This document shows positions 4,733-62,876 of a DNA stretch of 64,000 nucleotides, one piece after another. The notes beneath the pieces were generated by a model. That model worked only from the letters and a program-made list of their open reading frames with translations. It made no database searches and was not told where the DNA came from. The stretch's first letter is position 1; each line of letters starts with the position of its first letter. Where the stretch lies: the NCBI RefSeq assembly GCF_018141405.1, contig NZ_CP058648.1, positions 1,441,001 through 1,505,000 of the forward strand, read 5' to 3'. Source of the DNA: Serpentinicella alkaliphila. Lineage in GTDB: Bacteria; Bacillota; Clostridia; Peptostreptococcales; Natronincolaceae. The position numbers and the translations under genes are program-made.

Positions 4733-5755
4733 GTGAATAGTAAGATTAAAGTTTTAGTTGTAGACGACTCCTTAGTTTTTAGGGAAGTGCTGGCAAGGGG
4801 TATTTCTTCAGACCCGAATATAGTGGTAGTTGCTAAGGCAGAAGATGCCTTCGATGCTAGGGATAAAATATTAAAATATGAACCAGATGTTATGACTTGT
4901 GATGTTGAAATGCCAAAACTAAACGGAATTGAATTTATACGTAGATTGTTACCACAATATCCATTGCCTGTTATAGTTGTAAGTAGTGTAAGCTATGCAG
5001 TTTTTGATGCTATGAATGTAGGGGCAGTAGATTTTGTAACTAAGCCAAATATTAATTGTTCTAGAGGAATTGAAGAGTTTATTTATGAGTTGATTCAAAA
5101 GGTAAAAATCGTATCTAGAGCTAATATAAATCCAAATGCAGAAGTGAATAAATTTAACTTCATCAGTGGAGATAGTGTGGATACAACAAAAATTATAGCT
5201 ATAGGGGCATCAACTGGGGGGACAGATGCAATCTACAATATACTAAAGTCCATGCCTCCTACTACTCCGGGTATTGTAGTAGTACAGCATATACCTCCAA
5301 TATTTTCAAAGATGTTTGCTGAGAGGCTTAAAAATAAGACTAAATTAATGGTCAAAGAGGCTGAGAATGGAGACTATATTGAACCTGGAAAAGTGTTAAT
5401 TGCCCCAGGTGATAGACATATGAAAGTAAAAAAACAAGGTGATAGGTATAAAGTAGAGGTATTTAGTGGAGAAAAGATAAATGGACATTGTCCTGCAGTT
5501 GATGTTTTATTCGAATCAGTTGGAAAAGAGGTCGGAAGTAATGCTATTGGAATTATATTAACAGGTATGGGTTATGATGGAGCTAGAGGACTACTATCTA
5601 TGAGAAGAAAAGGGGCTAGAACTATTGGTCAAGATCAACAGTCTTCTGTAGTCTATGGTATGCCAAAAGTAGCTAATGATATCGGAGCAGTTGAGAAGCA
5701 AGTCTCTCTTCATGATATTCCTAAGATACTTTATTCAATGATAAATAAAATATAG
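4733..5755 (+). CDS. cheB: Chemoreceptor methylesterase/deamidase CheB
   Basis: CheB removes receptor methyl groups when phosphorylated by CheA. The 340-residue protein has an N-terminal receiver domain (about 4-120; phosphoacceptor Asp in TCDVEMPKLNG; KP at the end of the fold) and a C-terminal methylesterase domain (about 150-338). The catalytic Ser is in AIGASTGGTDA, the His in VVQHIPP and the Asp in TGMGYDGARG. The start is GTG at 4733, about ten bases after AGAGGTGG; the nearby ATG at 4727 runs into a stop at once. With the P1 domain of CheA lost upstream, its phosphate source is uncertain unless another CheA exists. Confidence 0.94.
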   Translation: MNSKIKVLVVDDSLVFREVLARGISSDPNIVVVAKAEDAFDARDKILKYEPDVMTCDVEMPKLNGIEFIRRLLPQYPLPVIVVSSVSYAVFDAMNVGAVDFVTKPNINCSRGIEEFIYELIQKVKIVSRANINPNAEVNKFNFISGDSVDTTKIIAIGASTGGTDAIYNILKSMPPTTPGIVVVQHIPPIFSKMFAERLKNKTKLMVKEAENGDYIEPGKVLIAPGDRHMKVKKQGDRYKVEVFSGEKINGHCPAVDVLFESVGKEVGSNAIGIILTGMGYDGARGLLSMRRKGARTIGQDQQSSVVYGMPKVANDIGAVEKQVSLHDIPKILYSMINKI

Positions 5756-24717: not shown

Positions 24718-25837
24718 AATTATTCCAAATGAAAAGCAGGAACAATTTATGGCAATCTGTTGGAACTGCAAGATTTATCTATAATTGGACACTTGCAAGA
24801 CAAGAAGAAAATTATAAAAATGGTGGTAAGTTTATAAAAGATGGATATTTGAGAAAAGAATTAACTATATTAAAGAAATCAGAACTTATTTGGCTGAGTG
24901 GATTATCTAATAATGTAGCAAACAGGCTGTAAAAGATGGTTGTAACGCTTATGAAAATTTCTTTAAAGGATTAGCTGATAAACCCAAATTTAAGAGTAGA
25001 AGAAAAAGAAAGCCTTCATTCTATAACGATACAGATAAACTAAAAGTTAAAGAAAATTTAGTACTAATTGAAAAAGTAGGTTGGATTAAAACAATAGAGC
25101 AAATACCTATGGAAATTAAATATACTAACCCAAGAATAAGTTTTGACGGGAAGTTTTGGTATATATCTGTAAGCATGGAAAAAGAAGAACCTATATCAGA
25201 AAATACAAATATATCAATAGGTGTAGATTTAGGTTTGAAAGATTTAGGGGTAGTTTCAAATATAGATAAGCCATTTAAAAACATTAATAAAACTAAAGAA
25301 GTCAAAAGACTAAAAAAGAAGTTAAAAAGAAAGCAGAAACAAGTTTCAAGAAAATATGAAGATGGAAAAATTCAAATAGGAAGGGAAGGTGAAAACCGTT
25401 ATAAATTTACTAAAACTAATAATATTAAAAAAGTAGAAAGAGAATTAAAACTTATTCAAAGAAGACTTTCAAATATACGTTTAAATCATATACATCAAAC
25501 AACTAATGCTATAGTGAAAACCAAGCCAAGCTGAATAGTTGTCGAGGATTTGAATGTAAAAGGCATGATGAAAAATAAACACTTATCAAAGGCTATTGGG
25601 GAACAATGTTTCCATAAATTTATTAGTTTTTAGAATATAAAAGTAAATTTAATGGTATTGAATTTGTAAAAGCAGATAGGTTTTATCCATCAAGCAGAAC
25701 TTGCTCATGTTGTGGCGAAATCAAGAAAGATTTAAAACTTAAAGATAGAGTTTTTATCTGATCATCATGTAACTATAAAATTGATTAGAGATAAAAATGC
25801 TTCAATAAATCTTTCAAGATACGAGAAATCAGCATAA
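24695..25837 (+). pseudogene. tnpB: TnpB RNA-guided nuclease, heavily degraded
   Basis: Coding similarity runs through all the family's parts but in changing frames. The start ILAKKVRIIPNEKQEQF (frame of 24695) shifts near 24750 to LWQSVGTARFIYNWTLARQ and shifts again after 24930. The RuvC-I motif is SIGVDLGLKDLGV (about 25220). A TGA at 25532-25534 precedes RuvC-II IVVEDLNVKGMMK. There is a further stop near 25632, then the zinc finger RTCSCCGEI and a RuvC-III-like RDKNASINL with more stops. The catalytic Asp and Glu codons survive, but the protein cannot be made. The TnpA upstream is intact, so the accessory nuclease decayed first. Confidence 0.92.
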
Positions 25838-25915
25838 TATCACTAACAAGATAATGCTGATATGTACTGTTCGTTACGCAGGAATTTAAGCCTTTGGACA
25901 ACATATCAAACTGGA
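25820..25915 (+). ncRNA. Possible right-end guide (omega) RNA of the IS607 element
   Basis: TCAGCAT and ATGCTGA form a stem around 25829-25862, just overlapping the tnpB stop, followed by a structured-looking tail. Omega RNAs of TnpB elements are made from this location. With tnpB broken it would be a relic. No alignment was possible. Confidence 0.3.
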
Positions 25916-26000
25916 GTAGTCTTATGACAAAACAGGTGCGTTGAATAAGGAATAAATCTCTAATGTTAGATTTTGGTAGATTTTATGTAACGGGTGTTTG

Positions 26001-61105: not shown

Positions 61106-61135
61106 TTGACAGTATAGATAAAATAGGGTTATAAG
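61106..61135 (+). promoter_or_regulatory. Sigma-A-type promoter for the glycine riboswitch transcript
   Basis: TTGACA (61106-61111) and TATAAG (61130-61135) are 18 bp apart, just after the CYTH stop codon and about 50 bp before the aptamers. Confidence 0.65.
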
Positions 61136-61192
61136 TCATTGGACTAATCATATAATTTATATATATTAAAAACTAAATTATGGTGAATGAAG

Positions 61193-61370
61193 ATTGTTGG
61201 AGAAACCCTAATGGGTTACCGAAGAAGAAAGGAATAGTAGGCTATATGTTATTCCGAAGCTTTCAGGTTCAATACAATAATTGGACACTACCCTGGAGAG
61301 ATCCATTTCCGATGGGCATCGAAGAAGTAACCTTATAAAAAAGGGAAGCTTTCAGATAAAAGGACAGGGA
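61193..61370 (+). promoter_or_regulatory. Tandem glycine riboswitch
   Basis: Two glycine aptamers lie in a row. The first has TTGGAGA, CCGAAGAAG and CCGAAGCTTTCAGGTT (61196-61268). The second has CTGGAGAG, TCGAAGAAG and GAAGCTTTCAGATAAAAGGA with CAGGGAG (61293-61371). These are the glycine-aptamer consensus segments in their right order. A P1 stem for the second, CCCTG/CAGGG, closes at 61291-61369. The 3' strand of that stem borders the terminator's 5' arm, so glycine binding may hinder the terminator and switch the gene on; this logic is inference. It controls the PTS IIC-like gene. Confidence 0.88.
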
Positions 61371-61410
61371 GTAAATAGCATGTATTTACTGTGCCATTTA
61401 CTCTTTTTTA
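61369..61410 (+). terminator. Riboswitch-controlled terminator
   Basis: GAGTAAAT (61369-61376) pairs with ATTTACTC (61396-61403) and ends in seven T. An alternative stem AGTAAATA/TATTTACT lies inside and competes with it. Confidence 0.85.
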
Positions 61411-61458
61411 TTTTGTCTACATAAGGCTTGGAAATAAAAATAAGGGGAGGGATTAAAA

Positions 61459-62460
61459 GTGGAAATTATAAAAGGGATAGGTCTATTAGTTTTAACACTT
61501 ATTATATTTTCTGCATTTAGCTTCAAGGCACCAAAAGGACAAAAGGCTATGTCTGGATTAGCAAACGCTACAGTAGCAACTTTTTTAGTCGAGGCAATAC
61601 ATAAGTATATCAGTGGAGATTTCTTCAATTTAGGATTTTTAGGTGAGGTCGGGACCATTTCAGGTAATATGGGAGGCGTTGCGGCTACTTCCCTAGTTGC
61701 TTTAGCAATGGGGGCGAAACCGGTATTTGCAGTTACTGCTGGAGTTGCTATGGGTGGATATGGTATTTTGCCTGGTTTCATTGCAGGCTATTTAGTTGGT
61801 CTGATTAGTCCATTTTTAGAAAGGAAATTACCAGAGGGTGTAGATATAATTGTAGGTGCATTAATTCTTGCTCCAATAGCTAGATTAACAGGCTATTTAG
61901 TTGCGCCTATAGTAAATGCAACCTTACTTAGTATAGGAAATATGATTACTGTAGCTGCGGAGCAGTCTCCTATTGTGATGGGATTTTTATTAGGTGGAAT
62001 TATTAAAGTAATATGTACATCTCCATTGAGTTCTATGGCACTAACTGCTATGCTTGGTCTTCAAGGCTTAGCCATGGGTATTGCTGCTATTGCCTGTGTA
62101 GGTGGATCATTTACAAATGGTATAGTATTTCATAGATTAAAATTAGGAGATAAGAGCAAAGTTATAGCTGTGATGTTAGAACCATTAACACAGGCAGATA
62201 TTGTAACACAAAATCCAGTACCTATTTACTCATCTAATTTTATTGGTGGTGGATTAGCTGGAATTGGGGCATCGTATTTCGGCATAATAAATAATGCGCC
62301 GGGGACTGCAGCACCAATTCCTGGTTTGCTGGCACCCTTTGGTTTTAACCCTCCAATTAATGTTATAGGGGCTATTATCATAGCTGCCATAGGTGGGACA
62401 GTGGCGGGGTTAATAGGGAGTGTAGTTTTTACAAATTATAGGGCTAGAATTGAAAAATAG
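61459..62460 (+). CDS. PTS IIC type-2-like membrane transporter under glycine riboswitch control
   Basis: 333 residues, about nine hydrophobic helices, of the PTS_EIIC_2 group: FKAPKGQKAMSGLANATVAT at the start and MGGVAATSLVALAMGAKPVF, GGSFTNGIVFHRLKLGDKSK and AAPIPGLLAPFGFNPP further on. No IIA or IIB domain or gene is present, so sugar phosphotransfer is doubtful. It starts at GTG with GGGGAGG eight bases before. The tandem glycine riboswitch upstream and serA downstream suggest a role in glycine or serine movement rather than sugar uptake. That is inference from regulation. Confidence 0.82.
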   Translation: MEIIKGIGLLVLTLIIFSAFSFKAPKGQKAMSGLANATVATFLVEAIHKYISGDFFNLGFLGEVGTISGNMGGVAATSLVALAMGAKPVFAVTAGVAMGGYGILPGFIAGYLVGLISPFLERKLPEGVDIIVGALILAPIARLTGYLVAPIVNATLLSIGNMITVAAEQSPIVMGFLLGGIIKVICTSPLSSMALTAMLGLQGLAMGIAAIACVGGSFTNGIVFHRLKLGDKSKVIAVMLEPLTQADIVTQNPVPIYSSNFIGGGLAGIGASYFGIINNAPGTAAPIPGLLAPFGFNPPINVIGAIIIAAIGGTVAGLIGSVVFTNYRARIEK

Positions 62461-62466
62461 TAATTC

Positions 62467-62491
62467 AAGGGGGATGCTCATGCATCCCTTT
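62467..62491 (+). terminator. Terminator after the PTS IIC-like gene
   Basis: AAGG-GGGATGC pairs with GCATCCC-TT around TCAT, followed by T. Confidence 0.85.
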
Positions 62492-62574
62492 AACTATGAA
62501 TATAAAAAAATTTTCGCGAATAAAATAAGCTAGAATAACTGAATATATTAACATAAAAAACTTTAAAATAATTG

Positions 62575-62639: not shown

Positions 62640-62876
62640 AGCTAATGCTATGAAAGAGACAGTAAACAGTGTATAGTTTGTAGAGAGCCAATGGTAGGTG
62701 GAAATTGGTACTAGAGGCTGTTGAATCCACTCTGAAGCAGGAGAGGGAATTAACTTCTCCCGGTTGAAGCCGTTATATTCAGTAAGGTCATTTAATATTA
62801 ATGACGAATCAGGGTGGCACCGCGTAAGTATAACTTTCGTCCTTGGCTTTTTAGGCTAAGGGTGGGAGTTTTTTTA
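62640..62876 (+). promoter_or_regulatory. Serine-type T-box leader
   Basis: The 14-base T-box AGGGTGGCACCGCG is at 62811-62824. Upstream, stem I shows AGAGAG and GGTGGAAATTGG, and the specifier region GAATCCACTCTG offers UCC (62726-62728), a serine codon. Downstream a terminator stem spans 62832-62875 (AACT, CCTT, GGC paired with GCC-like, AAGG, AGTT) and ends in T. Uncharged tRNA-Ser would therefore favour the antiterminator and turn on serA. The specifier call rests on position by analogy. Confidence 0.92.

Follow-up and report, generated by a model that had tools for sequence, protein, structure and literature searches.

A tandem glycine riboswitch precedes a lone EIIC-fold gene in Serpentinicella alkaliphila and suggests a PTS-independent glycine transporter family

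A 64,000-nt stretch of the Serpentinicella alkaliphila genome (NZ_CP058648.1), referred to below as the window, carries a tandem glycine riboswitch and a terminator 5' of a lone PF13303 gene. The encoded membrane protein is, on balance, probably a PTS-independent and glycine-induced transporter of glycine or a close relative, which mostly serves Stickland fermentation. The evidence also tips slightly in favor of a whole family of amino-acid (glycine) transporters that derive from or share the PTS IIC fold, have dropped phosphotransfer, accompany glycine reductase in Clostridia and Photobacterium, and are induced by their substrate through RNA or a two-component system. The computed support consists of the riboswitch, its conserved ON architecture, its conserved link to the gene, the EIIC fold, the missing Enzyme I, and the co-occurrence with Grd genes. 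Glycine as the substrate, uptake as the main direction, and the energy coupling are what we infer rather than compute, and the riboswitch reports on the regulation of the gene, not on the cargo of the protein. The transporter proposed in the initial annotation of this DNA is partly supported. No paper linking a glycine riboswitch to PTS IIC or PF13303 was found in the literature.

Organization of the locus

Two glycine aptamers and a terminator before a lone PTS IIC-type gene had been described in the initial annotation, and matches to RF00504 and PF13303 confirmed this layout. The features are as follows.

61106..61135, + strand: putative sigma-A promoter, TTGACA-18-TATAAG, read by eye
61187..61287, + strand: glycine riboswitch aptamer 1 (RF00504, 47.1 bits, E 2e-8 in a whole-genome search)
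61283..61377, + strand: glycine riboswitch aptamer 2 (RF00504, 61.5 bits, E 2.6e-10; model R1, 91.1 bits)
61366..61412, + strand: intrinsic terminator, hairpin 61368-61405 followed by TTTTTT, dG -12.8, 5' arm AGGGAGTAAAT
61459..62460, + strand: gene of the 333-aa PF13303 EIIC-fold membrane protein, GTG start (Pfam, 219.7 bits)
62466..62495, + strand: likely terminator after the stop codon, a GC-rich hairpin GGGGGATGC-TCAT-GCATCCCTTT with a short T-run, read from the sequence
62641..62847, + strand: T-box leader of serA (RF00230, 119.8 bits), a separate regulatory unit
62909 onward, + strand: serA (TIGR01327, 506.7 bits), the next gene after the EIIC gene

Both aptamers scored above the RF00504 gathering score of 32. 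The window is itself among the R1 seed sequences. The tandem model RF03166 (glycine-GGAnGA variant) spanned both aptamers at 61183-61371 with 90.5 bits (E 7.8e-20); its gathering score of 110 was reached neither here nor in the related locus L009 (108.9 bits). The promoter, whose second hexamer lacks the final T, was absent from the list of a simple scan, and the intrinsic terminator was not listed by the simple consensus scan, probably because the pattern does not allow a loop of such length.

The EIIC gene looks monocistronic, because a hairpin follows its stop codon and serA has its own T-box. The specifier codon of this T-box, read by eye, is UCC (serine). No IIA or IIB gene was present in the flanking 60.4-64 kb of the window, in agreement with the initial annotation. 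A search of the whole genome (a single contig of 3,257,581 bases, 99.76% complete) revealed one further glycine riboswitch (L001), which has one aptamer only and precedes the gene of a sodium:alanine symporter (AGCS). Elsewhere in the window, a RAGATH-18 RNA (RF03064, 47.0 bits, just over gathering) was found at 25891-25952 on the + strand, directly 3' of an apparent TnpB-type gene whose zinc-finger end would lie at about 25700-25765.

Predicted response to glycine

The window's terminator hairpin begins within the 3' strand of aptamer-2 P1, its 5' arm pairing with ATTTACTCTTT, and this overlap couples the expression platform to aptamer 2. Since the P1 and terminator pairings are mutually exclusive, glycine is predicted to prevent termination, and the sequence thus predicts a transcriptional glycine-ON switch. 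As glycine rises, aptamer-2 P1 would form, its 3' strand would be withheld from the terminator, and readthrough would follow; the ON-type tandem riboswitch would in this way drive the single EIIC gene by transcription control. The RNAfold MFE structure of the leader was uninformative on the ligand-bound state.

The overlap between P1 and terminator recurs in nearly all riboswitch loci, and the ON architecture, from which an ON response had been suggested at first reading, is conserved to the same extent. In L043, L044, and L051 it takes the form of long, almost perfect hairpins. L032 and L024 carry GGAA instead of GGGA in P1, and both the 5' partner and the 3' arm of the terminator change to match. 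In L028 the overlap is plain by eye, the script having misplaced it. L026 and L047 show the least overlap, and L047 has apparently lost aptamer 1. The platform of the L001 symporter in the window genome lacks the overlap.

Conservation of the riboswitch-gene link

We searched a genome collection with a profile scan and obtained 72 related loci, 57 of them clostridial and 15 from Photobacterium/Aliivibrio; the scan used two peptide patterns, and some relatives will have escaped it. Five local aptamers served to build a covariance model, which placed a riboswitch directly 5' of the EIIC gene in 18 of the 57 clostridial loci, giving 19 distinct cases with the window (L009 and L032 belong to the same genome). 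The proteins linked to a riboswitch were 57-74% identical to the window protein. Within the window's family, the gene was present in 4 of 20 genomes, all four with the riboswitch. By a rough estimate, about 0.01 riboswitch-gene pairs would be expected by chance among 58 loci versus the 19 seen, and chance pairing is excluded. The pair stays together in many unrelated contexts, and the link between riboswitch and gene drawn in the initial annotation is conserved across several lineages. On the protein tree, whose support is modest, the riboswitch label needs several changes, and we therefore conclude that the link was gained or lost more than once.

The Photobacterium loci had no riboswitch near the EIIC gene at Rfam gathering scores. 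In these loci (L057-L081), the EIIC gene is often divergent from a gene that encodes a fused aminotransferase/decarboxylase and has a DABA-DC-AT RNA (RF02951) in its leader; a reading of this 965-aa neighbor as gcvP was rejected. In two Tissierella-like genomes (L036 and L046), a gene of the Asp/Glu racemase family lies 3' of the EIIC gene.

A histidine kinase and/or a YcbB-domain response regulator was found near the gene in 34 of the 57 clostridial loci, usually just upstream. Either the riboswitch or such a GlnK/GlnL-type pair was present in 50 of the 57, and both were directly upstream in only two; of the seven loci with neither, three are truncated at the edge of a contig. The gene order in L026 and L047 is kinase, regulator, AGCS symporter, glycine riboswitch, and EIIC, and in Peptoclostridium litorale (L049) a tandem glycine riboswitch (5197-5291) lies 3' of the EIIC gene and before the kinase/regulator pair. 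In these other lineages the pair, which is of the GlnK-GlnL type known from Bacillus subtilis, takes the place of the riboswitch and presumably does the same job; the signal that it senses near EIIC genes is one we infer.

Co-occurrence with glycine reductase and the transported compound

Of about 71 carrier genomes overall, 63 had PF07355, the GrdB family (selenoprotein B of glycine/sarcosine/betaine reductase): one set contributed 46 of 50 distinct carriers, with G211 and G313 taken as one genome, and a second set 17 of 21. The relatives of the window gene thus go with Stickland genomes. In the class sample alone, PF07355 occurred in 3 of 4 carriers versus 33 of the 287 genomes without the EIIC gene (Fisher p 0.006, which ignores shared ancestry). 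These 33 are among only 36 Grd-positive genomes of that sample, and the gene is therefore not required for Stickland metabolism. In a set of 150 Vibrionaceae genomes, all 19 that had PF07355 also had the EIIC gene, and no other genome of the set did, with the two mostly on different contigs; the carriers there are mostly of one genus, and the co-occurrence p-values ignore shared ancestry. In most carriers, the control described above would mean that the substrate induces a transporter which serves Stickland fermentation by glycine/sarcosine/betaine reductase.

The window genome itself had neither PF07355 (GrdB) nor PF02347 (GcvP). The check for Stickland genes that had been proposed for this organism thus came out negative for GrdB, and the organism lacks both usual routes of glycine catabolism. 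This weighs against a simple role in import for catabolism here and is the point that the proposed function explains least. Glycine could instead be turned into serine via glycine hydroxymethyltransferase, or it could be exported. An exporter would act as a safety valve, with glycine excess turning on an efflux permease and thereby protecting cell-wall synthesis. The ON control would suit such detoxification, as it does for the B. subtilis gcvT operon (PMC5666159), and the window genome keeps the switch without either enzyme to dispose of glycine. However, the co-occurrence with the reductase suits uptake better, and the GlnK/GlnL-type control in relatives resembles substrate-induced uptake, so that we regard export as possible but unlikely.

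The protein might instead carry another compound tied to the fermentation of glycine, be it sarcosine, betaine, serine, alanine, or a product of that fermentation, and glycine would then signal only indirectly. PF07355 covers the reductases for glycine, sarcosine, and betaine without telling them apart, which leaves room for such a cargo. Stickland genes of the Grd kind are known from P. profundum (PMC3505737), and the Photobacterium reductase cluster comprises a thioredoxin system, Grd subunits, and tRNA-Sec; among the genes scanned, which are a part of the cluster, no transporter was recognized. The Photobacterium B subunit scores alike as glycine-type and sarcosine-type and lower as betaine-type, and this reductase may use sarcosine, not glycine. 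In contrast, the riboswitch recognizes glycine, and in Alkaliphilus transvaalensis the betaine reductase cluster carries its own BCCT transporters. The grd operon of the latter species also has a glycine riboswitch. Such another cargo, with glycine as an indirect signal, seems doubtful to us.

A PTS fold without the PTS

The window protein matched PF13303 (PTS_EIIC_2) with 219.7 bits versus a gathering score of 28.9 and had no NCBIfam match. Its AF2 model (pLDDT 90.5) was compared with known structures by VIA-align. The best matches were PtsG, MalT, and ChbC, with Z of 11-15 and about 290 aligned residues; for E. coli PtsG IIC, Z was 14.7 with 292 aligned residues. The model indicates that the protein has a true PTS-glucose-superfamily IIC fold. 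A PDB sequence search with the window protein or a 69-sequence profile returned no relative, and hhalign against E. coli PtsG was not significant (probability of 16%); the conserved IIC glutamate was therefore left unmatched to E241 of the invariant EPLTQ motif in PtsG.

No Enzyme I (TIGR01417) was found in the window genome, where the best score was 106.9 bits against a cut-off of 341.7 and came from a PPDK-like region. Phosphotransfer transport is therefore implausible in this organism, and the view in the initial annotation that the protein does not move sugars holds insofar as it is not a PEP-PTS sugar component there. Enzyme I was also missing in about ten other carriers, some of which are possibly incomplete metagenome assemblies, and looks like a split gene in one further carrier. 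An ordinary PEP-PTS sugar IIC that uses IIA and IIB encoded elsewhere would fit the Pfam name, the clear EIIC fold, and the fact that most carriers do have Enzyme I. However, it is contradicted by the complete window genome, those ten or so carriers also count against it, no recurrent IIA/IIB neighbor was identified among the recurrent clusters of 73 loci, and the regulation is linked to amino acids. A lone EIIC, possibly of another subfamily, has also been reported from Clostridium acidurici, which likewise lacks Enzyme I according to the same study (PMC3519856). We consider a sugar PTS component very improbable. Rather, the EIIC-fold protein would move glycine or a very close relative independently of the PTS, acting as a facilitator or secondary transporter. 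Control of some other gene by the riboswitch is also very improbable: serA does lie downstream, but it has its own T-box and is preceded by the hairpin after the EIIC gene, and riboswitch and EIIC gene are kept together across contexts.

The window genome has a second PF13303 gene (L004 844-2505, about 1202.3-1204.0 kb), which belongs to a different subfamily and lies directly after a 3H/HTH_11 (NiaR-like) regulator. It has no glycine riboswitch, and a statement that glycine riboswitches control PF13303 genes in general would be too broad. This gene is a candidate nicotinate-type carrier, and its position beside the NiaR-like regulator suggests that PF13303 probably holds several non-sugar carriers.

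Implications and comparison with known systems

If the proposed function is true, many anaerobes have amino-acid carriers that are now annotated as sugar PTS components, and metabolic models would be corrected accordingly. Glycine-fermenting (Stickland) bacteria would gain a candidate transporter, a PTS permease fold would be seen to work on an amino acid without phosphorylation, and a single gene would offer a clear case in which an RNA switch and a two-component sensor replace each other.

The B. subtilis gcvT tandem glycine riboswitch (RF00504/RF03166 type) has two aptamers and one transcription terminator and is an ON switch in which glycine prevents termination (PMC5666159). The window switch has the same parts and a predicted ON response; however, it controls a lone EIIC-fold transporter, whereas gcvT concerns glycine cleavage genes. 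In Streptococcus pyogenes, a glycine riboswitch likewise controls a transporter gene, that of a sodium:alanine symporter (AGCS), but this switch is OFF and the transporter belongs to an unrelated family (PMC5829553). In B. subtilis, GlnK-GlnL responds to glutamine by inducing glnT, the gene of a glutamine transporter (PMC2743287). This is an amino-acid transporter induced by its own substrate, and pairs of the GlnK-GlnL type adjoin the relatives of the window gene; unlike glnT (AGCS), the window transporter has the EIIC fold and is under RNA control. PtsG, MalT, and ChbC of the PTS glucose superfamily have their fold in common with the window protein over about 290 residues, but the identity is 10-16%, and the window protein has neither an IIA/IIB neighbor nor Enzyme I in its genome. 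Finally, the L004 paralogue is, like the window gene, a single PF13303 gene, with a small-molecule regulator beside it.
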